Assembly (NCBI RefSeq): GCF_000970285.1
Contig: NZ_CP009516.1
Span: 3,575,036 to 3,639,035, forward strand
Source of the DNA: Methanosarcina horonobensis HB-1 = JCM 15518
GTDB taxonomy: Archaea; Halobacteriota; Methanosarcinia; Methanosarcinales; Methanosarcinaceae
Length of the DNA stretch: 64,000 bases
Reading direction: 5' to 3'
The first letter of the stretch is position 1; every line of letters begins with the position of its first letter. This document shows positions 36,272-49,790 of this stretch, piece by piece. A program made the position numbers and the translations under genes. The notes beneath the pieces are model-generated. The model saw only the letters and a list, made by a program, of their open reading frames with translations. It had not been told where the DNA came from and made no database searches.

Positions 36272-39200
36272 TCAGATCATTGCAAACATACGCGCTACAT
36301 CATCAAAATCGATCCTGCCATTTCCGTTGAGGTCGAAGTACTCCACCGGCATGTTTTCCTCTATCCAGTCCATGTTGTGGAAGTACGCCACTATATCTAC
36401 GAAGCTGAACTCCCCGTTTCCGGTGAGGTCTTCATAGAACCCGTCTCCGTCAAGGTCCTGAGGGGCATATTCCTGATCCGGCAGGGGAGACAGAAGGGTC
36501 ACTTCAATTCTTCCTGTTAAAAATGCCGGCTCTATGATGTTTCCTGAATCGTCATCCAGACGTTTAACCCCTATCGAAAGGTTCGCAGATCCTTTCTTCT
36601 TTCCGGAAACAGTTAGGGTGGCGAGCACAACATCTGTTGCTCCTGCCTTAACAGTATCTTCCCCGTCAACAGTCTTCAGGTAGATAGAAGTCCCTGGCAG
36701 AGAAGAATTCTCAGTAATCAGACCCCAGGAAGGATACTCTATATCAACTATCTCGGCAACAGTCGGGTCGTCAATAGCAACGGTAAGGTTGTAGCCTGAA
36801 AGACCTTCTGGGAAATTACTGGCAACGACATTTATCTCAATAGATTCGTTTTCTGAGACAGAGGAGTTTTCCGGGTCAAAATAGAGAGTAACAGTTGACC
36901 CGGAAGCTCCGGAAACTTCTATGTAATCCGATTTTAACTCGAAGTCCTTCCCAGCAGCATTTTCCACAGTCAGGTTTACAGTGTAATTTCCGGCTGCATT
37001 ATAGGTATGCGAGGGATTCTGATCGGTAGCACTGGTACCGTCACCGAAGTCCCAGAACCACGAGGTAGGTGTGCCTGTAGACTGGTCCGTGAAATTGACA
37101 GTGAGAGGGGCAGTACCGCCAGTTACATCAGCAGTGAAAGCAGCAACGGGTTCAGGTTCTACAGGTGCAGAAGATACAGTGATGTAATCAGTTTTCACCT
37201 CGGAATCGCTTCCTCCAGCATTTGAAACCATAAGACTAACTGTGTAGTTACCGGCCGATTCATATGTACACGAGGGATTCTGCTCAGTTGAGTCCACAGT
37301 GCCGTCATTATTAAAGTCCCAGGAGTAGGAAGAGACTGAACCAGTTGACGCATCGGTGAACTGAACCGTGAGCGGAGCATCGCCAGAAGTGGGTACTGCA
37401 GTAAAGTCTGCAACCGGTGCAGTCTCTAGGTATTCAGCCATGAGAATTGTATTCATAGCATACATGCTGTCGCCAGAGGAGCCATTCAGGTAACTCAGTA
37501 GGCGTGCGGTATCAGTGCCATCATGAATGGCTCCGGTCACATCGTAAGAAGAGAAACCCATCTGCGGATTTGATAGATAATCACTCCAGAAACCTGGGTA
37601 CTCCTGGTTGTTGAAATAGAATTTACTCTTTCCAACATCGCTTGCACTGGCCAGGATGGCTATTGCAGTAGCTTTCGAAACACCCGAGGCATTCACACCG
37701 CTGAAAGACGCATAAGCTGTGGCCTCGTCGCTGGTTACTGCATAGCTATTCCCTGCTGCGAGAATATCGAACTCATCGTTGATCCAGATCTTTCCCGTTT
37801 TTCCTGCAGGGTCGTGGTAGACAACGACCATGTACGCTCCCCACATAGCATAATCATTGCTAGCCTCAGGGGTGATGGTAATACTGTTTCCTGAGGAGTT
37901 AAACAGTGACGTTACGTTGTAGACATAAAGCCCATATGGGTAATTGTACATGCCATAACTCTTTTGATCCTTGTAGGTGGCAATCGGAGTTACGGTATTG
38001 CTGTTGAACGACATTGTAAATGCCGGGTCAGTTCCCATCTTATTGTAGCTGTACGCCTGGTAGAGCCGAGCGCTTACAACCGTTGTTCCTGCAGGGATTG
38101 GCAGGTTCGTTGATGACCATGTATATGTTTTGGCAGTCCAGTTTGCTGAATTATATGCCGTGTTTCCGGCTGAGTAAACAATCCCATGCCTTCCTTCAAA
38201 CGTAGCCTGCGTTGTTATATCGTTCCCACCGGTGTACCTCTTGCCCTTGTACCCATTATTGACAACAGTTTTTGTGAGGGTCATTGAGTTGTTAGTTTCA
38301 TCGAACTCGGAAACCTCATTATTAGAGTCTGCAGTGACCGTAATCTCCACGCTGTCTCCTAAGGTTCTAAGAGCAGAGTCCGTTATTGTAAGTGTAGTAT
38401 TTGCTCCAACTGCAAGACCGCCAGTAGCTACATTTGTATCGACACCATTAATGGTGAATTTGACCGTAAAGTTTCCAGAATCAGCCGCACCTATATTCGT
38501 AACAGTTGCCGCTATGGTATTTGTCTCATTTGCAAAAATCTCGCCAACATTCGGGGCGATTGCTGAAACAATGAGATCAGACTTCGAAGACCCATTGACA
38601 ACAATGTATCCTGTCTTTACTTCAGAATCACTTCCACCTGATCCAGTAACTGTAAGGTTGACAGTATATGTTCCAGGTTCGCTGTAAGTATACGAAGGAC
38701 TCTGTACGTTACTGTCTACAATTCCATCATTATCAAAGTCCCAGGCATATGAGGATACAGTACCAGTTGAAGCGTCAGTGAACTGAACATCAAGAGGGAC
38801 CGTTCCGCTGGTCGGGTCTGCAGTGAAATTTGCTACCGGTGCAGATTCCTGTTCTGCCTGGTATTCAACAACAAGTATCTGCTGGAGTGCGTCCATGCCT
38901 CCGCTAGTTGTGCTCTGGATGCCGAACTCGTTCACTGTTTCAGTGATATAGTTTGTTGCATTAAAGACCAAGGGACTTGCAGTGTTGGAACTTCCCATCC
39001 ATGCATTGGTTGCCACGGTATTTCCGTTGAAAAGCAGGTTTCCTTCATCGGGTCCTGCACTTCCTGCAAAACTGTACAGCATAGCGTTCACGACATTAGT
39101 CTTGTCAATAGTCATGCCGGTGAAAGGAACGTATGCAATAGCCTCTTCTGGAGTGGTCCCATAACTGGACTCAGATAACCCAAGCTCATCGCACTCTTCG

Positions 39201-41158
39201 TTAATGAAGATCTGCTTCCTGGTTTCATTAGAGTTCCTGTAGACCACGACAAGAGTGCTGGGATACAGTGCGACTTTGCCGTAAAGGTCATTATTTCCAT
39301 CGTAGGGAACCGTAACAAGGCTGTTTTCGGATGAGCTAAACTTGTCGGTTACATCGTAGACACAGAGCCCATATTCATAGTCAGCGTACCCGCCAAAATT
39401 ACTCCAATCCCTGTAGAGAATTCCGTTTCCTGTTGAGAGGTTTCCGTTCTCTATTATGTTCCCGTTGAAGTTAATGTTCAGCCACGGATACCCACCGGGT
39501 GTCTGGTCCCAGTTGTAGGCGAAATAAAGGAGGGCCTTTTCTATAGTTGAACCAGCAGGAATCGGAAGGTCGCTTGCACTCCATGTTTCGGTCCTGCCGG
39601 AACCCCAGCCTCCAACTCCTTTATAGGCAGATTCAGGCTGTGTGGAATACAAAAGGTTACCATGGAGATCAAAGGTATTTTTAGTAGTGATATTGCTCCC
39701 GCCTTCCCAGTAGATGCCTTTGCCCTTATACCCGTTGTATTTGACCAGTTTCGCCGCACTGCTCTTGTTGTTGTTGGCCTCGTTGGTTTCAGGGATAAGG
39801 TTATCCGGATCAACGCGTGCTGTGTAGGTCACCGTGTCGCCTTCAAGATTGCGTATGGTCGGGTCGATCAGGGTTACAGTGGTCTGTGCCCCGCTCCCGA
39901 GAGACGCGATGGTTGTCGTGTTTGCGGGAACCGTACCATTGGAAACGTCGCTTGCATACAGGGCGACCTGGATATTGGTGGCGGTTTCAGGCCCGCTGTT
40001 TTTGATATTGGTGATCTTCACCGAGTTTTGTTCCCTGGAAAAGACCGCACTGGCAGGTACAGGGTTCACAATGCTGGCGATGGTGAGGTCAACCTGGGGC
40101 GTCTGTTCGATTTGACTTTTTACCACAAGGAAAGCGAGCGGGATCTTGTAGAATGCTGCAGTGCCGGTACCTGGCAGGTATCTAGCATAGGCAAACATGA
40201 CACTGCTGCTGCCGGAGACAGAAGAGGTCACGTCCCATGAATCAATCCCTGAGTAGTCACCCTGCGCATCTGCGACCCTATCAAGCCCTATGTTTGTAAA
40301 TGACCCGGTCTTTGCAGATGCATCGAAGTTATTATCTGATGTTGGGAAACCGTAGTAGCCATTGTTACTTGCCATGTAATCAGCGGTGAGCTTGGCCGAT
40401 GTGATGCCGGAAAGCCCGCTGGTGTCAAATGTGGTTGTTCCAACGGCAACTTCACCCAGGTTATCCTCAGTATAGTAAGTGCAGGCGTCATGCCCCTCAT
40501 TCACCCAGTAAGTTGTCTGGGTTGTGGAGGCGGGGTCGTCGTATGCAACAACCAGCGTCACTACCTTTATCCGGCCATCATAGGAACCCGTGGAGTCAAC
40601 TTTCACCTTGATAGTATCCTCCCCAGCCTGGACCAGGTTAGTAACATCGTACCAGCTCAGGTAGTCACTTGTCACTCGGTTGGTATGGTCATTGAGCATC
40701 AGATAAGGTTCCCCGGTGCCGTGCCCTGCAAACTCGCTGTTGTCATTGCCGCCATCGCCATAGTCCCCACCCTGAAGGTAGATGAAGGGCTGTCCTTCGT
40801 CAGTTTCTGTCCAGGTGTTGTCCCAGGTCCCGTCGTTATCCCAGTCAACACTGGTGGTGTAGGTGATTTTCTTTGCATCCTGCATATGGCCGCAGTAGCT
40901 GGAGACATAGAGCCGGGCCCATTTTACCCGTCCGGATTCCGCCACAGCAGCTGCCGGCAGGGTAAACGTCCTGTCTACAGCATTAGAAAATCCTGTTGAC
41001 GGAGGGTTTCCGGAGATATAAAGGTCGCCGGTCACTGTCCCAGTCTGAACTGTAGTCAATGGGAGACCACCGACCCAGTCATCTGCAGCTCCTATGCCTG
41101 TAAACAGGACAAAGCATAGAACTGCTGAGATCCATAAAAATGAAGGTTTCCTGTTCGT
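36272..41158 (-). CDS. Giant dockerin protein with three DUF3344 modules; ACG start
   Basis: 1628 residues if started at the ACG at 41158, seven bases after GGAGG. No ATG, GTG or TTG lies in frame between a TAA at 41180-41182 and a TTG at 41059, which is beyond the signal peptide. Order: signal peptide (n-region NRKPSF, cleavage near GIGAA), DUF3344 (26-345), CARDB (350-448), DUF3344 (450-705), PKD (715-795), CARDB (800-890), DUF3344 (892-1125), two PKD (1128-1305), cohesin-like (1310-1450), and dockerin loops [12 protein letters not shown] and [12 protein letters not shown] at the C-terminus. DUF3344 marks include GRIKVVTLVVAYDDP and YWVNEGHDACTYYT. It heads the operon with the cohesin anchor and the two-cohesin protein. 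The N-terminal 980 bases are almost identical to those of 41966 and the last 728 to 10097. Confidence 0.9.
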   Translation of the reverse strand, partial: TNRKPSFLWISAVLCFVLFTGIGAADDWVGGLPLTTVQTGTVTGDLYISGNPPSTGFSNAVDRTFTLPAAAVAESGRVKWARLYVSSYCGHMQDAKKITYTTSVDWDNDGTWDNTWTETDEGQPFIYLQGGDYGDGGNDNSEFAGHGTGEPYLMLNDHTNRVTSDYLSWYDVTNLVQAGEDTIKVKVDSTGSYDGRIKVVTLVVAYDDPASTTQTTYWVNEGHDACTYYTEDNLGEVAVGTTTFDTSGLSGITSAKLTADYMASNNGYYGFPTSDNNFDASAKTGSFTNIGLDRVADAQGDYSGIDSWDVTSSVSGSSSVMFAYARYLPGTGTAAFYKIPLAFLVVKSQIEQTPQVDLTIASIVNPVPASAVFSREQNSVKITNIKNSGPETATNIQVALYASDVSNGTVPANTTTIASLGSGAQTTVTLIDPTIRNLEGDTVTYTARVDPDNLIPETNEANNNKSSAAKLVKYNGYKGKGIYWEGGSNITTKNTFDLHGNLLYSTQPESAYKGVGGWGSGRTETWSASDLPIPAGSTIEKALLYFAYNWDQTPGGYPWLNINFNGNIIENGNLSTGNGILYRDWSNFGGYADYEYGLCVYDVTDKFSSSENSLVTVPYDGNNDLYGKVALYPSTLVVVYRNSNETRKQIFINEECDELGLSESSYGTTPEEAIAYVPFTGMTIDKTNVVNAMLYSFAGSAGPDEGNLLFNGNTVATNAWMGSSNTASPLVFNATNYITETVNEFGIQSTTSGGMDALQQILVVEYQAEQESAPVANFTADPTSGTVPLDVQFTDASTGTVSSYAWDFDNDGIVDSNVQSPSYTYSEPGTYTVNLTVTGSGGSDSEVKTGYIVVNGSSKSDLIVSAIAPNVGEIFANETNTIAATVTNIGAADSGNFTVKFTINGVDTNVATGGLAVGANTTLTITDSALRTLGDSVEITVTADSNNEVSEFDETNNSMTLTKTVVNNGYKGKRYTGGNDITTQATFEGRHGIVYSAGNTAYNSANWTAKTYTWSSTNLPIPAGTTVVSARLYQAYSYNKMGTDPAFTMSFNSNTVTPIATYKDQKSYGMYNYPYGLYVYNVTSLFNSSGNSITITPEASNDYAMWGAYMVVVYHDPAGKTGKIWINDEFDILAAGNSYAVTSDEATAYASFSGVNASGVSKATAIAILASASDVGKSKFYFNNQEYPGFWSDYLSNPQMGFSSYDVTGAIHDGTDTARLLSYLNGSSGDSMYAMNTILMAEYLETAPVADFTAVPTSGDAPLTVQFTDASTGSVSSYSWDFNNDGTVDSTEQNPSCTYESAGNYTVSLMVSNAGGSDSEVKTDYITVSSAPVEPEPVAAFTADVTGGTAPLTVNFTDQSTGTPTSWFWDFGDGTSATDQNPSHTYNAAGNYTVNLTVENAAGKDFELKSDYIEVSGASGSTVTLYFDPENSSVSENESIEINVVASNFPEGLSGYNLTVAIDDPTVAEIVDIEYPSWGLITENSSLPGTSIYLKTVDGEDTVKAGATDVVLATLTVSGKKKGSANLSIGVKRLDDDSGNIIEPAFLTGRIEVTLLSPLPDQEYAPQDLDGDGFYEDLTGNGEFSFVDIVAYFHNMDWIEENMPVEYFDLNGNGRIDFDDVARMFAMI
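40117..41095 (-). repeat. ~980-base block nearly identical to 44665-45643
   Basis: Constant offset 4548. Only a handful of single-base differences are seen (for example CACTCGG/CACCCGG and GTCGCCGG/GTCACCGG). It encodes the N-terminal DUF3344 module of both giant genes. Downstream modules of the two genes are clearly more diverged. Confidence 0.8.
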
Positions 41159-41500
41159 AAATTTTCCTCCTGTACCGTATTAGAGAAAGAGTTCCAGAGG
41201 TGTGTAACAGTCCCTATCAAAGAAGTAACAGTAATCCAACCAGAAATCAACCTGTTTCAAAAAATAATACCAAATTTTTGTCATTGTGATTTTAAGAATC
41301 TTGTAATGTATTTTCAACAAGATAGCATTAAATTATTCCTTTATCTTATAGAACCCTCTTTGACAGATTGCCTTCTCAAAAATGCTCTACAACTTCTTCC
41401 CATTTATGCTTAAATATTATTACTAATTAATATTTTATTAACAACATTTCAGATATATCAATCTTTCTAAATGTGTCTTAAAGATACAAAAGTTCATATT
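41159..41500 (-). promoter_or_regulatory. Conserved leader of ACG-start gene 36272
   Basis: GGTACAGGAGGAAAATTT ends it at the ACG. Upstream are GGGAAGAAGTTGTAGAG (about 41390) and AAAGATTGATATATCTGAAA (about 41451-41470), both repeated before 41966 and, more weakly, 46642. The latter includes the likely minus-strand TATA box. The mRNA leader is about 280 bases. Confidence 0.5.
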
Positions 41501-41965
41501 TGTATATACGACAAATGGCAATTTTAGTGCATTTAAGTCCTTTTTACTCAATCTGTTACTCTAAAAATTTAGAAAAATTTCATTTTTCAGCAATCGTTTA
41601 TTGGTTCATTTGTTTCATTATTAAGCAAGGGATTAGTTTAATAATTATTAATATTATTAATTTAAGTAATAACATTAAACTACCATTGCATAAGGAAATT
41701 TGGCTTAAAAAGTAAAAATAATAAGTAAAAAATAGCTATTAAGCTCATCTAGAACTGAAAATCTGACAATATGATACACCGTTGATCTATTCAAAAAAAA
41801 GTAGTTACAACTCTCTTTACAATTTCCTTCCCATCCAAAATATGTCTTCCCCCAGTAAGTAATGTATATCTTGAATTTAATAATATTTAATATTCCTAAA
41901 GAAAAACAATATTAAATATAAAAATTCTTATGCCTTTATTTAAAAAATAAAAAGAAACAGCCTTA
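41501..41965. other. AT-rich spacer with partial promoter-block copy
   Basis: CCCAGTAAGTAATG (from about 41850) and AAACAATATTAAATATA (about 41905-41921) resemble blocks P4-P6, but no type A or B body follows; gene 41966 ends just beyond. A 71-codon plus ORF (41500-41715) looks fortuitous. Confidence 0.35.
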
Positions 41966-44900
41966 TTAGGCTGCTTCTGCCCAGAAAATGAGACTTCCCT
42001 GGAATTGCCCTGTAGACGAGTAGTTTAACGGTAGATCAAGCTGAGCTTCGGAGGTTACCGAATTTTTTGCAGCTATGATCTTACTGTAGCTGGACCAGAT
42101 GCTTTGATCAAGCAAGAGCCCAGTTTTGAAAGGACCGTTTTCCTGGTCATCCACTTCGGCAGTAACCTTTATACTGGTGCCTCCGTTATTCTGGAGAGTA
42201 AGGGGCAAAGACTCACTCGGCGTTCCCGGAGAGACTATTCCGAAATCGACCGAATTCGGAGAGACAGTCAGGGAAATTGCAGGAATGATTTTCACTTTAA
42301 GTGATACCGTTGAAGAGGAACCTGAGCCCGAAGAAGCTACTTTCGCCTGCTGGATAATCTCTGCGTCCGTGCAGCCATCTTTGCTGGCCGTTGCAGTAAT
42401 TGTTCCTTCACAGCTTGCATTTACCGCAAGTACAACCGTTCCGTTCGCATCAGTTGTTCCCGAACCTGTAGCACAACCGCTCAGATTTACAAATGCTCCT
42501 TCAACAGGGAAATCGTCACTTGTTACAGTATACGTAACATCGGTTTCCTCTTCCACAGTCACATTAAGGGTACTTGCAGAGAGAGAAAGGGCAGGGGTGA
42601 CAGGCGTTTCATTTTCAGACACCGCCTGCTGGATAAGCTCTGCGTCCGTGTAGCCGTCTTTGCTAGCCTCTGCAGTAATAGCTCCTTTAGAGCTTGCATT
42701 TACCGCAAGTACAACAGTTCCGTCCGCATCAGTTGTCCCCGAACCTGTAGCACAACCGCTCAAGTTAACAAGTGCCCCTTCAACAGGGGAATCGTCACTT
42801 GTTACGGTATACGTAACATCGGTTTCCTCTCCCACAGTCACATTAAGGGTGCTTGCAGAGAGAGAAAGTGCAGGAGTGACAGAAGTTCTATCCTTAACAA
42901 CAATATATTCGGTCTTCACCTCAGAATCACTGCCTTCAGATCCGTTTACAGTTAAGTTGACAGAGTAATTACCCGCAGTTTCATAGATATACGATGGGTT
43001 CTTTTCCTCGCTGTCGATAGTGCCGTCATTATTAAAGTCCCAGGCATAGGAAGAGATAGTACCGGCAGATTTATCGGTGAACTGGACAGTCAGTGGAGCA
43101 TCTCCAGAGGTAGGAGTTGCCAAAAAGTCAGCCACTGGCGTAGCAGATGCAGATCCCTCATATTCAATAACAAGTATCTGCTGGAGTGCGTCCATGCCTC
43201 CGCTAGTCGTGCTCTGGACTCCCGCCTCGTTTCCGGTTTCATTGATGTAGTCTGTAACATCAAAGACTAAGGGGCTTCCTGAATTGGAACTTCCCATCCA
43301 TGCATTGGTTGCCACGATGTTTCCGTTGAAAAGCAAGTTTCCTTCATCGGGTCCTGCACTTCCGGCAAAACTGTACAGCACAGCATTTGTGACCTTATCC
43401 ACGTCAATGGACATGTCGGTGAAAGGAGCGTATGCAGTAGCCTCTTCAGGAGTGGTCCCATAATTGGATTCAGACAAACCAAGCTCGTCGCATTCTTCAT
43501 TAATGAAGATCTGCTTCCGGGTTTCATTAGCGTTTTCGTAGACCACTACAAGGGTGCTGGGATACAGTGCGTTTTTGTTTTCACCAACAGATGTCATGAC
43601 AAGGTTGTTTCCTGAAGAGCTAAACTTATCGGTTACATCGTAGACATAGAGCCCGTATTCATAGTCAGCGTACCCGCCAAAATTGCTCCAGTCCCTGTAG
43701 AGGGTTCCGTTTCCTGTTGAGATGTTGCCGTTATCAAGGGTGTTCCCATTGAAGTTAATGTTCAGCCACGGATATCCGCCGGGCGTCTGGTCCCAGTTGT
43801 AGGCGACATAAAGGAAGGCCTTTTCTATTGTGGAGCCACTCGGGACCGGAAGGTCGCTTGCACTCCAGCTTTCTGTCCGGGTCTCCCAGCCGACAGATTG
43901 GTAAGCAGAATCAGGCTGTGTGGAGTACAAAAGGTTCCCCTGGAGGTCATACGTATGTTGGGTAGTGATATTGCTTCCGCCTTCCCAGTAGATACCTTTG
44001 CCTTTATAGCCGTTGTATCTGACCTCTTTGGCTGCACTGCTCTTGTTGTTGTTGGTCTCGTCGGTTTCAGCGATAAGGTTGTCAGGGTCAACGACAGCAG
44101 TGTAGGTAACAGTACCGCCTTCAAGGTTGCGGATAGTAGGGTCGATCAGGGTTACTGTGGCCGTCTCTTCGCTTGCAAGGGATGCAATCGTTGTCGTGTT
44201 TACTGGAACCGTTCCACTGGATACGTCGCTTGCATACAGGGCGATTGAAATGTTGGTAAGGGTGGCAGTTCCGGTGTTCTTGACATTGTTAACTTTCACA
44301 GTATTTGCTTCCCTGGCAAAGATCGCAGAAGCAGGAACGGTGTTGACGAGCCCTGAGATGGTGAGGTCGTTCGTCGTCACCTGAGTCGCTTGAGTTACGG
44401 TTATGTAGTTTGTCTTCACCTCGAAGTCGCTTCCATCTGCGTTCGTGACTGTGAGGTTGACAGAGTAGGTTCCTGCAGCCCCATAGGTATACAGGGGATT
44501 TTGCTGAGTGCTGTCGACAGTCCCGTCATTATCAAAGTCCCAGGCATAGGAAGAAACAGTCCCTGTTGATGCATCGGTAAACTGGACCTCAAGGGGAGCA
44601 GTGCCGCTTGTTACACTTGCCAAAAAGTCTGCCACAGGCGGCTGGGAAACCGTTTCAATCGGGCTTTTTACCACAAGGAAAGCGAGCGGGATCTTGTAGA
44701 ATGCTGCAGTGCCGGTACCTGGCAGGTATCTAGCATAGGCAAACATGACACTGCTGCTGCCGGAGACAGAAGAGGTCACGTCCCATGAATCAATCCCTGA
44801 GTAGTCACCCTGCGCATCTGCGACCCTATCAAGCCCTATGTTTGTAAATGACCCGGTCTTTGCAGATGCATCGAAGTTATTATCTGATGTTGGGAAACCG

Positions 44901-45718
44901 TAGTAGCCATTGTTACTTGCCATGTAATCAGCGGTGAGCTTGGCCGATGTGATGCCGGAAAGCCCGCTGGTGTCAAATGTGGTTGTTCCAACGGCAACTT
45001 CACCCAGGTTATCCTCAGTATAGTAAGTGCAGGCGTCATGCCCCTCATTCACCCAGTAAGTTGTCTGGGTTGTGGAGGCGGGGTCGTCGTATGCAACAAC
45101 CAGCGTCACTACCTTTATCCGGCCATCATAGGAACCCGTGGAGTCAACTTTCACCTTGATAGTATCCTCCCCAGCCTGGACCAGGTTAGTAACATCGTAC
45201 CAGCTCAGGTAGTCACTTGTCACCCGGTTGGTATGGTCATTGAGCATCAGATAAGGTTCCCCGGTGCCGTGCCCTGCAAACTCGCTGTTGTCATTGCCGC
45301 CATCGCCATAGTCCCCACCCTGAAGGTAGATGAAGGGCTGTCCTTCGTCAGTTTCTGTCCAGGTGTTGTCCCAGGTCCCGTCGTTATCCCAGTCAACACT
45401 GGTGGTGTAGGTGATTTTCTTTGCATCCTGCATATGGCCGCAGTAGCTGGAGACATAGAGCCGGGCCCATTTTACCCGTCCGGATTCCGCCACAGCAGCT
45501 GCCGGCAGGGTAAACGTCCTGTCTACAGCATTAGAAAATCCTGTTGACGGAGGGTTTCCGGAGATATAAAGGTCACCGGTCACTGTCCCAGTCTGAATTG
45601 TAGTCAATGGGATACCACCGACCCAGTCATCTGCAGCTGCGGCGCCTGTAAACAGAGTAAGGCAGACTCCACTGCTCAAAATCAGAGTTAACAATATAAA
45701 AATTAATTTCTTGTTCGT
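41966..45718 (-). CDS. Giant DUF3344 surface protein with WAEAA C-terminal module; ACG start
   Basis: 1250 residues from the ACG at 45718, seven bases after GGAGG; this gives a perfect signal peptide (n-region NKKLIFILL, cleavage after GAAAA). A TTG at 45829 would add 37 residues in front of it and lacks an SD. Modules: DUF3344 (28-348), PKD (360-440), CARDB (448-545), DUF3344 (548-800), PKD (808-890), two Big-type Ig repeats (900-1080, LSASTLNVTVGEETDVTYTV and a near-identical second copy, each with LSGCATGSGTTD), and the terminal module (about 1090-1250) ending SLIFWAEAA. There is no dockerin or cohesin, in contrast to its paralogue 36272. How it is held at the surface is unknown. It is transcribed alone, 0.8 kb from each neighbour. 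Confidence 0.9.
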   Translation of the reverse strand, partial: TNKKLIFILLTLILSSGVCLTLFTGAAAADDWVGGIPLTTIQTGTVTGDLYISGNPPSTGFSNAVDRTFTLPAAAVAESGRVKWARLYVSSYCGHMQDAKKITYTTSVDWDNDGTWDNTWTETDEGQPFIYLQGGDYGDGGNDNSEFAGHGTGEPYLMLNDHTNRVTSDYLSWYDVTNLVQAGEDTIKVKVDSTGSYDGRIKVVTLVVAYDDPASTTQTTYWVNEGHDACTYYTEDNLGEVAVGTTTFDTSGLSGITSAKLTADYMASNNGYYGFPTSDNNFDASAKTGSFTNIGLDRVADAQGDYSGIDSWDVTSSVSGSSSVMFAYARYLPGTGTAAFYKIPLAFLVVKSPIETVSQPPVADFLASVTSGTAPLEVQFTDASTGTVSSYAWDFDNDGTVDSTQQNPLYTYGAAGTYSVNLTVTNADGSDFEVKTNYITVTQATQVTTNDLTISGLVNTVPASAIFAREANTVKVNNVKNTGTATLTNISIALYASDVSSGTVPVNTTTIASLASEETATVTLIDPTIRNLEGGTVTYTAVVDPDNLIAETDETNNNKSSAAKEVRYNGYKGKGIYWEGGSNITTQHTYDLQGNLLYSTQPDSAYQSVGWETRTESWSASDLPVPSGSTIEKAFLYVAYNWDQTPGGYPWLNINFNGNTLDNGNISTGNGTLYRDWSNFGGYADYEYGLYVYDVTDKFSSSGNNLVMTSVGENKNALYPSTLVVVYENANETRKQIFINEECDELGLSESNYGTTPEEATAYAPFTDMSIDVDKVTNAVLYSFAGSAGPDEGNLLFNGNIVATNAWMGSSNSGSPLVFDVTDYINETGNEAGVQSTTSGGMDALQQILVIEYEGSASATPVADFLATPTSGDAPLTVQFTDKSAGTISSYAWDFNNDGTIDSEEKNPSYIYETAGNYSVNLTVNGSEGSDSEVKTEYIVVKDRTSVTPALSLSASTLNVTVGEETDVTYTVTSDDSPVEGALVNLSGCATGSGTTDADGTVVLAVNASSKGAITAEASKDGYTDAELIQQAVSENETPVTPALSLSASTLNVTVEEETDVTYTVTSDDFPVEGAFVNLSGCATGSGTTDANGTVVLAVNASCEGTITATASKDGCTDAEIIQQAKVASSGSGSSSTVSLKVKIIPAISLTVSPNSVDFGIVSPGTPSESLPLTLQNNGGTSIKVTAEVDDQENGPFKTGLLLDQSIWSSYSKIIAAKNSVTSEAQLDLPLNYSSTGQFQGSLIFWAEAA

Positions 45719-46060
45719 AAATTTTCCTCCTGTACGTCCTGGAGAAAAAAATTCCAGAGCTATGTACACAACAGTTCCTACTAGGGAAGTAACAGAAACC
45801 CAATAGTTTTCAAAAAAAAATTGTTTCAATTATGAGCTGGAAAAATACTCATAGTTAATTTTTAAGCCAGGTAGCGCTGGATTATTCCCTTTTCTGATAG
45901 GATTACCTTTTGCAGATTACATCTAGAATTATTTTCTCCATAACTTCTTCCCAATTTAGGTCTAATTATTAATACTAATAATCATTTTATTAACAAATTT
46001 TCAGATATATTAATCTTTCTAAATGCTTTTTGAATGGATAAAAATTATCATTTATGAGGA
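45719..46060 (-). promoter_or_regulatory. Conserved leader of ACG-start gene 41966
   Basis: It holds CGTACAGGAGGAAAATTT before the ACG, CTGGAATTTTTTTCTCC upstream, GGGAAGAAGTTATGGAG at about 45938-45954 and AAAGATTAATATATCTGAAA at about 46000-46020. The same blocks occur in order before 36272 and 46642. Confidence 0.5.
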
Positions 46061-46641
46061 TTAAGTAGCAATTTAGCAGTGTTCAAAGCTTTAAACTTAA
46101 TTCGGAAATCATTCGGAACATATCTTTTTTGAATAATTATTCACGCCGGAAAATACTCACATTTTTTAAATACGATAGTCTATTTTCAACACAATTGCTG
46201 CGAAAAATTTGGAAAAAACATGCACTCTCTATATTTGATGGCTAATATGACTATTTATTAAACCAATTATCAAGTCATTTGCATAATTATTATTAATATT
46301 TTAAAATAAAATAGCAATATTTAGCAATAAAATAATTATTAGAAATTAACTTAAAAGAATTACTATTAAAAAATTAATCATAAATAACCATGAATTCAAT
46401 ATAAAATCTTTTGGGTTTTAAGAATAACAACTCCTTATAAGGCCAGAAAAAAACAAACATTTTTCTTAAGAATGAGGATCCCTAATAATTTTTAGATTCC
46501 AACCTTTCTTACGAATCCCTGTTTCCTCAGGATACAGGCATGAAAATTACCCTAAAAAAACAAAGCTTTTTCTGGTTAGGATTATAACTTCTTTCTGATT
46601 CTCACGATATCCCAAATAGAAAATTATAAAAAGCAGCCTTG
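46061..46641. other. AT-rich spacer
   Basis: No gene, hairpin or repeat of note. It lies between the leader of 41966 and the 3' end of 46642. Confidence 0.4.
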
Positions 46642-49443
46642 TCAGGCTGCTTCTGCCCAGAAAAGAAGGCTTCCCCGGAATTGACCTGTCGACGGGTAGT
46701 TTGCCGGAAGGGCAAGCTGAGCTTCGGAGGTTACCGAACTTTCTGCAGCTATGACCTTACTGTAGCTGGACCAGATGCTGTTATCAAGCAGAAGCCCAGT
46801 TTCGAAAGGACCGGCCTCCTGGTCATCCACTTCAGCGGTCACTTTCATACTGGTGTCTCCATTATTCTGGAGAGTCAGGGGCAAGGACTCACTCGGTGTC
46901 CCCAGGGAGACTGTTCCGAAATATAGAGAATTCGGGGAGACCGTCAGGGAAACTGCAGGAATGAGATTTACCTCGAGCGATACCGTTGCAGGAGAACCGG
47001 ATCCAGAAGAGGAGGATTCTACCGCCTGCTGGGTAAGCTTTGCACGGGTATAGCCGTCTTTGCTGGCCTCTGCAGTAATAGCTCCTTTAGAGCTTGCATT
47101 TACCTCAAGTACAACCGTTCCGTTCACATCAGTTGTTCCCGAACCTGTAGCACAGCCACTCAAGTTAACAAGTGTCCCTTCAACAGGGGAATCGTCACTT
47201 GTTACGGTATACGTAACATCGATTTCCTCTCCCACGGTCACATTAAGGGTACTTGCAGAGAGAGAAAGGGCAGGGGTGACGGTTGCTCCATCTTTATAAC
47301 TGATAACAAGGATTGCATTTGAAGGAGCCAGATAGTCGCCATTGTTGTCCGTAACTAAGGGAGGTATTATCCTTGCCCTGTTGTTTTCGGCCAGAAGATA
47401 GGTTTCGACAGACCGTGCTTCATCGATGTCCAGATCAGAATAGGGTGTCGAGTCATAAATTCCTGAAGTGTTCATTTCATTGAATTCTAGAGATATACCA
47501 ACATGCCCCCCGGACTGGACTGTAGTCCAGAGGCGGGCCTCGTCTACACTGCTGAGATCTATGGACCCTTCAAACGGAATTTCTACGGTAGCTTCCTCTG
47601 GAGTAAGACCACCTGAAGTACTCATCGTACTTACCATGTCGCAGCCTTCGTTGATCCAGTATTCGATTTCCTCCCCAGAGGAGTCTTCATATACTACAAG
47701 CAGGGCAATCCCGTCAAAACAGACAAAGTTTCCGTTATCACTATGAGTGTTTGTGACCACTGTAGTATAAGTTCCGCTTCCGGTCACTAGCCCTGTTACG
47801 TCATAAGCCCAAGTCCCTGTCGGGTAGTCATATTGTGAGCCCCAGCCTTTCTGATCTTCGTACTCGGCTTCAGGAGTTAGAGGGCTACCTTCAAACTGCA
47901 GACTCATGGAAGGAATAACTCCAGTAGTATCTGTTGCACTCCATGTCCAGAAGTTGTAGAGCCGGGCAAACTTCACAGTTGCTCCTTCAGGAAGCTCCAG
48001 GGAGTGGCTTACGCCGTATGTATCTCCGGAAAATACCTTACTACTGTAGCTGCTGTTTCCATAATCATAAATAACGTTTCCTTTAACCATACCATGGGCA
48101 TAGGTTTCAAGAGGATTATCACCAACGTATCCGTTATGCAGCACCTCCTGTGTCTTACTCAGTGCATTATTTTTTGCGTCCGTATCGCTCATGGTAGAAC
48201 CTGGGCTGATAACTGCCCTGAGGATATAATCCTTTATTTCTTCCGGCTTCCATAAAAAATCAACCGTTTCGGTAGCACCATTTGCAAGTCCGGGAACCTG
48301 CTTACTTTCAATAAGGATGCCATCTGAATAAAGTTCGATGTCAAAACTGTCTGCTTTCTCTGGCCCGTTGTTTATTACAGTAACGCTTACTGTATTGTTC
48401 AGGTTGTCCCAGGCTCTGGCAAAACCATTGTGCGAGATTTTTACCGTCTGTACACTCAGATCAGTTGAAGACATTTCTCCGCTGTTACCAGAGGTTTCAT
48501 TAGAGGTATTATCACCGGGGTCACCAGAAGATGATGTCGTGTATTCGGTTGTCAGAATGCCAAGGGCACATTTATAGAATGCAGCATTCCGGTCATATGT
48601 CAAGGTATTTTTGCCGGTAGATTCTAAATAATCTTTAACATCCCATGCATCGGACCCACAGTAAGTTCCCTGCGACGTGCCTGAGGCGAGATTATTACCA
48701 TTAAAAGTGTATGCTCCATCCGTGCTTGCCATGTGCACAACTGTGAGTTCTGCATCAACCAGGGAAGAATCTTCCGGCAAATCTGCCTCAAAATCTGTGC
48801 TTCCCACATAAGTTTCACCCTGATAATCTTCAACATAATAAGTGTCCGCGTCATGTCCGCGGTTGATCTGGTACCAGATCTTGTTCCCACTGCCATCATT
48901 ATAAGCCACAACAAGGGTTATCAGTTTTATCCGTCCGTCAAAGGAACTATCGAGAGGTGCCGTGCTTACTACAGCTGTATTTTCCCCAGCTTCGATAAGG
49001 CTCGTGACATTATAATACATCATATAGTCACTGGTTACCCTGTTTACATGGTCATTTACTTGGACGTATGCTTCCCCGTCATTGCCCCCGTCGACAATGA
49101 AATGAAAAGGAACATTCAGAGTTTCGTTTCCAAGGGTCATACCGTTGAAGCTAACGTTTGCGGTTCCCGAGTAATTATTTTGCATGTGACCACAATATAC
49201 GGTAGTGAGCAGCATTGCCCATTCGACTTTGGCATTATCTGGAAGGGTAAATGTCTGATCTATTGTTTTTGCATCATTAATTCCCTGATCCGCTGTTCCG
49301 TAATAGCTATCAACATAGACACCACCGTCTACTGTTCCACTCTGGACAGAGGTGAGAGGAATTCCGCCTACGTAATTATCAGCAAGGCAGACTCCGCTGC
49401 TCAGAGTCAACGTTAACAGTATCAAAATTAGTTTTCTGGTCGT
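46642..49443 (-). CDS. DUF3344-CARDB-DUF3344-Big surface protein with WAEAA module; ACG start
   Basis: 933 residues from the ACG at 49443, seven bases after GGAGG. It gives an n-region TRKLILILL and cleavage near CLAD; the in-frame TTG at 49425 has no SD and loses the basic n-region, and a TAG lies in frame upstream at about 49480. Modules: DUF3344 of the YVGGIPLTS subtype (22-300), CARDB (320-415), a second DUF3344 of the ADKPLE-like subtype (420-690, KFARLYNFWTWSA, CFDGIALLVVYED), one Big-type Ig repeat (695-790) and the terminal module (about 800-933) ending LLFWAEAA. It thus joins the two DUF3344 subtypes in one chain. It is not linked to a cohesin or dockerin. Confidence 0.9.
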   Translation of the reverse strand, partial: TTRKLILILLTLTLSSGVCLADNYVGGIPLTSVQSGTVDGGVYVDSYYGTADQGINDAKTIDQTFTLPDNAKVEWAMLLTTVYCGHMQNNYSGTANVSFNGMTLGNETLNVPFHFIVDGGNDGEAYVQVNDHVNRVTSDYMMYYNVTSLIEAGENTAVVSTAPLDSSFDGRIKLITLVVAYNDGSGNKIWYQINRGHDADTYYVEDYQGETYVGSTDFEADLPEDSSLVDAELTVVHMASTDGAYTFNGNNLASGTSQGTYCGSDAWDVKDYLESTGKNTLTYDRNAAFYKCALGILTTEYTTSSSGDPGDNTSNETSGNSGEMSSTDLSVQTVKISHNGFARAWDNLNNTVSVTVINNGPEKADSFDIELYSDGILIESKQVPGLANGATETVDFLWKPEEIKDYILRAVISPGSTMSDTDAKNNALSKTQEVLHNGYVGDNPLETYAHGMVKGNVIYDYGNSSYSSKVFSGDTYGVSHSLELPEGATVKFARLYNFWTWSATDTTGVIPSMSLQFEGSPLTPEAEYEDQKGWGSQYDYPTGTWAYDVTGLVTGSGTYTTVVTNTHSDNGNFVCFDGIALLVVYEDSSGEEIEYWINEGCDMVSTMSTSGGLTPEEATVEIPFEGSIDLSSVDEARLWTTVQSGGHVGISLEFNEMNTSGIYDSTPYSDLDIDEARSVETYLLAENNRARIIPPLVTDNNGDYLAPSNAILVISYKDGATVTPALSLSASTLNVTVGEEIDVTYTVTSDDSPVEGTLVNLSGCATGSGTTDVNGTVVLEVNASSKGAITAEASKDGYTRAKLTQQAVESSSSGSGSPATVSLEVNLIPAVSLTVSPNSLYFGTVSLGTPSESLPLTLQNNGDTSMKVTAEVDDQEAGPFETGLLLDNSIWSSYSKVIAAESSVTSEAQLALPANYPSTGQFRGSLLFWAEAA

Positions 49444-49790
49444 AAATTTTCCTCCTGTACTGGGTTTCGAGAAAAAAATTCCTGAGTTCTATGCCAATCA
49501 GTTCCTGATAGAGGGATAACAGGAATCAAAGGTGTTGCCAGAAAATCAGAATAAATAAATTTTCATTATTCTTTAGTAAAAAATATTTAATGCCCCTATT
49601 TTGTGGTAGATGGAAGATCGAATAATTCCTGCCTCCGATAGGATTCATTTATACATATGTCTCTTAAACATCTTTTTCTCATAAAATCTTCCCAGTTAAT
49701 GCTTAATATTTAATACGAACATGTATATTATTCATAAATTATCCAATATATTAACCTTTCTGCCAATCATCCAGATTAATTATATTCTAA
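49444..49790 (-). promoter_or_regulatory. Conserved leader of ACG-start gene 46642
   Basis: It contains GTACAGGAGGAAAATTT before the ACG, TCAGGAATTTTTTTCTCG, CTGGGAAGATTTTATGAG (about 49685) and AAAGGTTAATATATTGGAT (about 49750-49768). These correspond to blocks in the 41.2-41.5 and 45.7-46.0 kb leaders with moderate divergence. Confidence 0.45.

Follow-up and report, generated by a model that had tools for sequence, protein, structure and literature searches.

The window analysed here, a stretch of 64,000 nucleotides from Methanosarcina horonobensis HB-1, carries on its minus strand three paralogous genes for large proteins, P1, P2 and P3, in which an ACG codon stands where translation would be expected to begin. 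P1 (CDS 36272-41158, 1628 aa) encodes a secreted surface protein with three DUF3344, two CARDB and three PKD domains, P2 (CDS 41966-45718, 1250 aa) has two DUF3344, one CARDB and two PKD domains, and P3 (CDS 46642-49443, 933 aa) has two DUF3344 domains and one CARDB domain. The DUF3344 assignment (PF11824) comes with scores of 441-621 bits for the three proteins against a gathering cut-off of 27. At the C-terminus of P1 (36272-36700), a cohesin-like segment followed by a dockerin-like EF-hand repeat can be made out by eye, neither of which was given by Pfam.

The ACG codons lie at 41156-41158 (P1), 45716-45718 (P2) and 49441-49443 (P3), each preceded on the same strand by the Shine-Dalgarno (SD) sequence AGGAGG, at 41166-41171, 45726-45731 and 49451-49456, respectively. 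In all three genes GGAGG is followed after 7 nt by ACG and then by a predicted signal peptide (approximately 41084-41158 in P1, 45632-45718 in P2 and 49381-49443 in P3), as an earlier note on this DNA had described. The in-frame translations from ACG begin with TNRKPSFLWISAVLCFVLFTGIGAADDW in P1, TNKKLIFILLTLILSSGVCLTLFTGAAAADDW in P2 and TTRKLILILLTLTLSSGVCLADNY in P3, the first letter representing the ACG codon itself, and a basic n-region with a hydrophobic core behind it is recognisable by eye right after the start in these three as well as in all other family members.

The window contains the string shared by the three leaders, CAGGAGGAAAATTTACG, three times and no more, always on the minus strand (41156-41172, 45716-45732 and 49441-49457), while shuffled sequences gave an expectation of 0.22 matches with up to three mismatches and none of 100 shuffles reached three. 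The identical block common to P1-P3 is 21 nt long (GTACAGGAGGAAAATTTACGA; minus strand, 41155-41175 in P1 with ends good to one base, about 45715-45735 in P2 and about 49440-49460 in P3). The observation that this string is unchanged although its flanks have diverged was confirmed, as P1 and P2 share 64% identity upstream and 59% downstream of the identical block. In the DNA for the mature region, on the other hand, P1 and P2 share a stretch that is 99% identical (509/513 nt), and such a stretch beside far more diverged leaders and signal peptides suggests recent gene conversion. A mobile DNA element at the leader was considered and rejected because the M. horonobensis genome holds no further exact copies of the string; the nearest sites elsewhere in it are one with two mismatches and ATG in an unrelated short open reading frame, and one with three mismatches inside a gene.

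Outside the window, GGAGGAAAATTTACG has exact matches in two other genomes of the genus, and a looser search retrieved the leader from many more. In the resulting collection of the DUF3344 family, ACG occupies the start position in 25 genes from 11 Methanosarcina genomes, one of which we take to be that of M. acetivorans C2A, and SD, spacer, ACG and signal peptide are all present in these genes. The comparison with orthologues that the earlier note had proposed gave ACG in 11 genomes and ATG in one clade and in outgroups. ATG-bearing orthologues combined with a sequence error had been named beforehand as evidence against the ACG start; such orthologues do exist, but the conservation of ACG across 11 genomes excludes a sequencing error. 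The motif AGGAGG-N7-ACG as such is not enriched in the M. horonobensis genome, with 23 matches against 52 for a reversed control, so that it is conservation and not the motif alone which carries the case. Judged from this conservation and from the ATG that some orthologues have at the identical spot, ACG is very probably the initiation codon of the three genes.

Other positions at which translation could begin have to be weighed against this. In P1, an in-frame TAA lies 7 codons upstream of ACG, and in agreement with what had been claimed for this gene, no ATG, GTG or TTG occurs from that TAA to at least codon 30, the first NTG, a TTG at 41059, lying past the end of the signal peptide. P3 is free of NTG upstream back to the stop and has TTG at codons 7 and 12 inside the hydrophobic core, and the open frame of P2 extends upstream over TTG/GTG codons at -37 and -17, a long way from the SD. 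Most family members have a TTG at codon 7 or 9, as would be needed if the genes were poorly expressed or decaying, with a true start at TTG or later and ACG as the product of drift after the loss of ATG. This is highly improbable given that P1 and a second gene (G023_a) contain no NTG inside the signal peptide, that a TTG start would remove the basic n-region, that frames as long as about 2400 codons are uninterrupted and that ACG is more conserved than four-fold degenerate sites.

Translation could also begin upstream or in another frame and reach the open reading frame by extension or frameshifting, in which case ACG would be an internal threonine codon. The heptamer AAATTTA is of the slippery type, a few members have an NTG in open frame 17-46 codons upstream, and in nine of the 25 genes, which fall into two groups, ATG or TTG stands one codon before ACG and may serve as an alternative start there. 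Yet the heptamer is not conserved (AAGATTG, AATATTC and AAAAGTT occur in its place), and ten members have in-frame stops 6-15 codons upstream with no NTG in between; in 10 of the 25 ACG genes (P1 and nine others), NTG is lacking from the upstream stop to codon 6. Furthermore, one M. acetivorans copy has a spacer of 8 nt, which implies that the frame ahead of ACG is not preserved, P1-P3 have no long upstream frame ending near the start, and orthologues carry ATG exactly at the ACG codon. The codon preceding ACG varies among TTT, TTC, TTA, TTG, CTT, GTT, TCT and ATG, as expected of an untranslated spacer. With no conserved heptamer and no upstream open reading frame found, an upstream start or frameshift is largely refuted and must be regarded as extremely improbable.

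The origin of the ACG codon can be traced through the orthologues that lack it. Four of them, forming one supported clade (G003_c, G004_b, G005_b and G025_b), read ATG AAT AGA/AGG AAA (MNRKLILILLTLILSSGVC) where the others read ACG AAT AGA AAA, behind an SD that is AGGAGG in three of the four and GGGAGA in one. ATG is also found at the identical position in a further Methanosarcina gene (G021, GGTGGGAAATTTATGAATCGAAAG) and in an ANME-2 relative used as outgroup (GGAGGTAAATCATGAAAAGA), and the remaining DUF3344 outgroups within the genus begin with ATG. With ATG in the outgroups and in one clade, ACG thus derives from ATG and has reverted once in subfamily B. Three start-codon changes in all are required on the tree, which fits either two origins of ACG or a single origin moved between two subfamilies by a leader cassette. 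Several within-genome pairs have leader and signal-peptide DNA that is 69-92% alike compared with 42-56% for the mature parts, and this higher similarity, which extends to proteins with a quite different mature part, supports the cassette; ACG has probably spread together with a re-used leader and signal peptide. At four loci (L029, L038, L046 and L039) this ACG leader, together with the signal peptide, stands before another kind of mature part that looks CARDB-like by eye, as would fit a cassette put to repeated use.

Selection on the start codon was addressed with a protein tree of 25 genes, on which the middle base of the start codon was compared with 31 four-fold degenerate columns. The middle base (C) changed once, compared with 2-7 changes (mean 4.7) in the 31 columns, on a tree with a total length of 10.8 substitutions per four-fold site; 31 columns are few, and gene conversion between paralogues may slow change, yet it would affect the comparison columns too. 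If ATG were simply better, it could have been restored by a single transition in many lineages, and ACG therefore seems to be kept. That ACG limits expression, one of the two possibilities raised in the earlier note, is plausible, and perhaps ACG is kept because a lower or conditional rate of initiation suits giant surface proteins.

Conditional initiation could be achieved by the leader itself if ACG were weak by design and a hairpin of the upstream CUUUCUCU tract with the SD acted as a riboregulator, which would add to decoding of ACG by the ordinary initiator tRNA and not replace it. Pyrimidine tracts predicted to pair with the SD are present on the minus strand in P1 (CTTTCTCT, 41182-41189, 7/8 pairs), P2 (TTTTCTCC, 45741-45748, 8/8) and P3 (TTTTTTCT, 49470-49477, 8/8). 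In most members the minimum-energy fold has the SD paired within a stem, pairing of SD and tract averages 7.4 of 8 pairs against 6.1 after shuffling of the upstream 40 nt, and the outer pair has changed from C-G to U-A in four sequences. RNAalifold, however, gave no consensus structure, and although 91% of the stem cells are paired, covariation does not rise above that of shuffled alignments (138 of 500 were as high). The stem is absent from several rows, and the ATG clade retains this leader. As leader and stem are equally present in that clade, the hairpin does not explain ACG, and a riboregulated leader is a tentative and rather unlikely addition.

Non-NTG starts are not confined to DUF3344 proteins, and in the other families, too, such codons nearly always follow a strong SD. 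Two other AGGAGG-N7-ACG matches in the M. horonobensis genome are start-like and conserved, namely those of AblB, the beta-lysine N-acetyltransferase (TIGR03827; G000:C1:562850-563179, minus strand; loci L253-L265), and of a TPR protein (G000:C1:2846224, plus strand; loci L266-L285). Five genomes have ACG at the orthologous start of AblB, another five have GCG and three have ATG. A strong SD precedes the codon in every case (AAGGAGG nearly throughout), and all but one have a stop 4 codons upstream; one of the ACG genomes has no NTG in codons 2-70. Variation in AblB is flat across codon positions upstream of the start and third-position-biased past it. Termination-reinitiation was rejected for this gene since a gap of about 70 nt separates its start from the end of the preceding gene. 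The TPR protein starts 7-8 nt past AGGAGG; about ten genomes, M. acetivorans among them, have ACG there, two have ATA, one has GTG and two have ATG.

A sample of 864 kb from the M. horonobensis genome led to two more families. One is a SAM methyltransferase (L160:3555, plus strand; loci L198-L217) whose start is ATT in M. horonobensis, whereas seven congeners have ATA and twelve have ATG; the copy in one genome (G019, L212) has an in-frame TAA at codon 5 and is possibly a pseudogene. The other comprises surface proteins of the NosD-like beta-helix type (L160:1923, plus strand; loci L241-L252), which carry a signal peptide and across the genus apparently start mostly at ATA. This sample contains 52 stop-bounded frames behind a strong SD, of which 47 begin with NTG, four with ATT, ATA or ACG, and one with TCT, which is probably spurious. 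SD-spaced ACG seemed enriched in the sample (17 versus 6), but some sites were counted twice and the genes of the window itself were among them; of the rest, several have an NTG close by or sit deep within a frame. Probable ATT starts were also seen in a mannose-1-phosphate guanylyltransferase-like (sugar-nucleotide pyrophosphorylase-like) gene at L150:14332 (plus strand) and in a short gene without assigned function at L164:4025 (plus strand), and a probable ATA start in a glycosyltransferase-like gene at L147:7697 (minus strand).

The alternative suggestion of the earlier note, that decoding here is unusual, is thus upheld insofar as non-NTG starts recur in at least four other families, but the trait belongs to Methanosarcina and not to the three genes alone. 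A peculiarity of these paralogues is not supported, with 25 genes of the DUF3344 family and further families sharing such starts. A broader proposal would be a genus-wide relaxed or assisted start selection, with ACG (even GCG), AUA and AUU as selected starts of whole families and possibly with C-to-U editing creating AUG or GUG at ACG and GCG starts; we give this even odds. As an explanation of the ACG codons, C-to-U editing of the mRNA is very improbable, and editing of this kind is not known from archaea. It would resemble that of plant plastids, with ACG becoming AUG and GCG becoming GUG ahead of translation. The alternatives ATG, ACG and GCG at the AblB start are exactly those which C-to-U changes turn into AUG or GUG, and editing is known to create the starts of plastid rpl2, psbL and ndhD (PMC9845219). 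The ATA and ATT starts of other Methanosarcina families cannot be mended in this way, however, and, as judged by eye, SD and spacing are all that the surroundings of the C have in common between families.

The reading that accounts best for these observations, to which we assign a probability of roughly 0.8, is that ACG is a genuine start accepted as a near-cognate codon by the ordinary initiator Met-tRNA, with a near-perfect SD as compensation. AGGAGG 7 nt upstream would position the 30S subunit on ACG, the anticodon CAU would be accepted despite one mismatch, and the protein would presumably have an N-terminal methionine ahead of its basic n-region and signal peptide. In line with this, a pattern search of the M. 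horonobensis genome found only CAU-type initiator anticodon stems, and the pair that was fetched was identified as tRNA-Met (CAU) by ARAGORN. A variant initiator tRNA with a CGU anticodon, sought as GGGCTCGTAACCC, was not found in the same genome (G000), and the match in another genome (G006) is not a tRNA. Methanosarcina would likewise tolerate ACG, AUA and AUU as starts in unrelated genes, and the DUF3344 family would have passed from an ancestral ATG to ACG, followed by spread on the cassette and later retention. The GCG start of AblB in five genomes is not easily explained by near-cognate decoding and counts against it. In archaeal initiation complexes, aIF1 is thought to promote the rejection of poor codon-anticodon pairing (PMC6412873; PMC8211752). 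According to Belinky et al. (2017, PMC5622118), prokaryotic genes with a sub-optimal start codon tend to have a stronger SD in compensation, and the strong SD beside ACG agrees with this tendency. The simplest account is direct use of ACG by Met-tRNA with help from the SD.

Non-AUG initiation is known, as are ACG starts in plastids, where they are edited (PMC9845219). No report of archaeal ACG starts came up in a search of open-access text, which does not prove their absence from the literature. If true, an ACG start that is genus-wide, apparently selected and shared by several families of archaeal genes would be new. It would also be of practical concern, as gene finders limited to ATG, GTG and TTG would truncate or miss such proteins; P1 called from an NTG would begin past its signal peptide and look cytoplasmic. 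Conserved ACG starts in a genetically tractable archaeon would make the fidelity of start selection, with aIF1, aIF2 and SD strength as its determinants, directly testable, and ribosome-profiling and RNA reads of M. mazei (PMC11456600) already exist and may contain the answer.

Among known systems, the AUU start of bacterial infC is an example of near-cognate, non-NTG initiation in prokaryotes. The Methanosarcina starts resemble it in being one-mismatch codons which are conserved across species and dependent on an SD; they differ in that the mismatch of ACG is at the middle base, that giant archaeal surface proteins and several families are concerned, and that feedback by an initiation factor is not evident. 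The plastid starts of rpl2, psbL and ndhD (PMC9845219) share the presence of ACG where relatives have ATG, but those are edited to AUG, whereas in Methanosarcina ATA and ATT starts co-occur. Belinky et al. (2017, PMC5622118) catalogued start switches in 36 groups of closely related prokaryotes, where sub-optimal starts likewise go with a stronger SD; they describe switches among AUG, GUG and UUG, with a handful to CUG and AUU, and ACG is not mentioned in the main text. Finally, P1-P3 are like other DUF3344 (PF11824) surface proteins of Methanosarcina and other methanogens in domain content and signal peptide, but the outgroups start with ATG, and among the proteins sampled the ACG start is confined to a subset from Methanosarcina.
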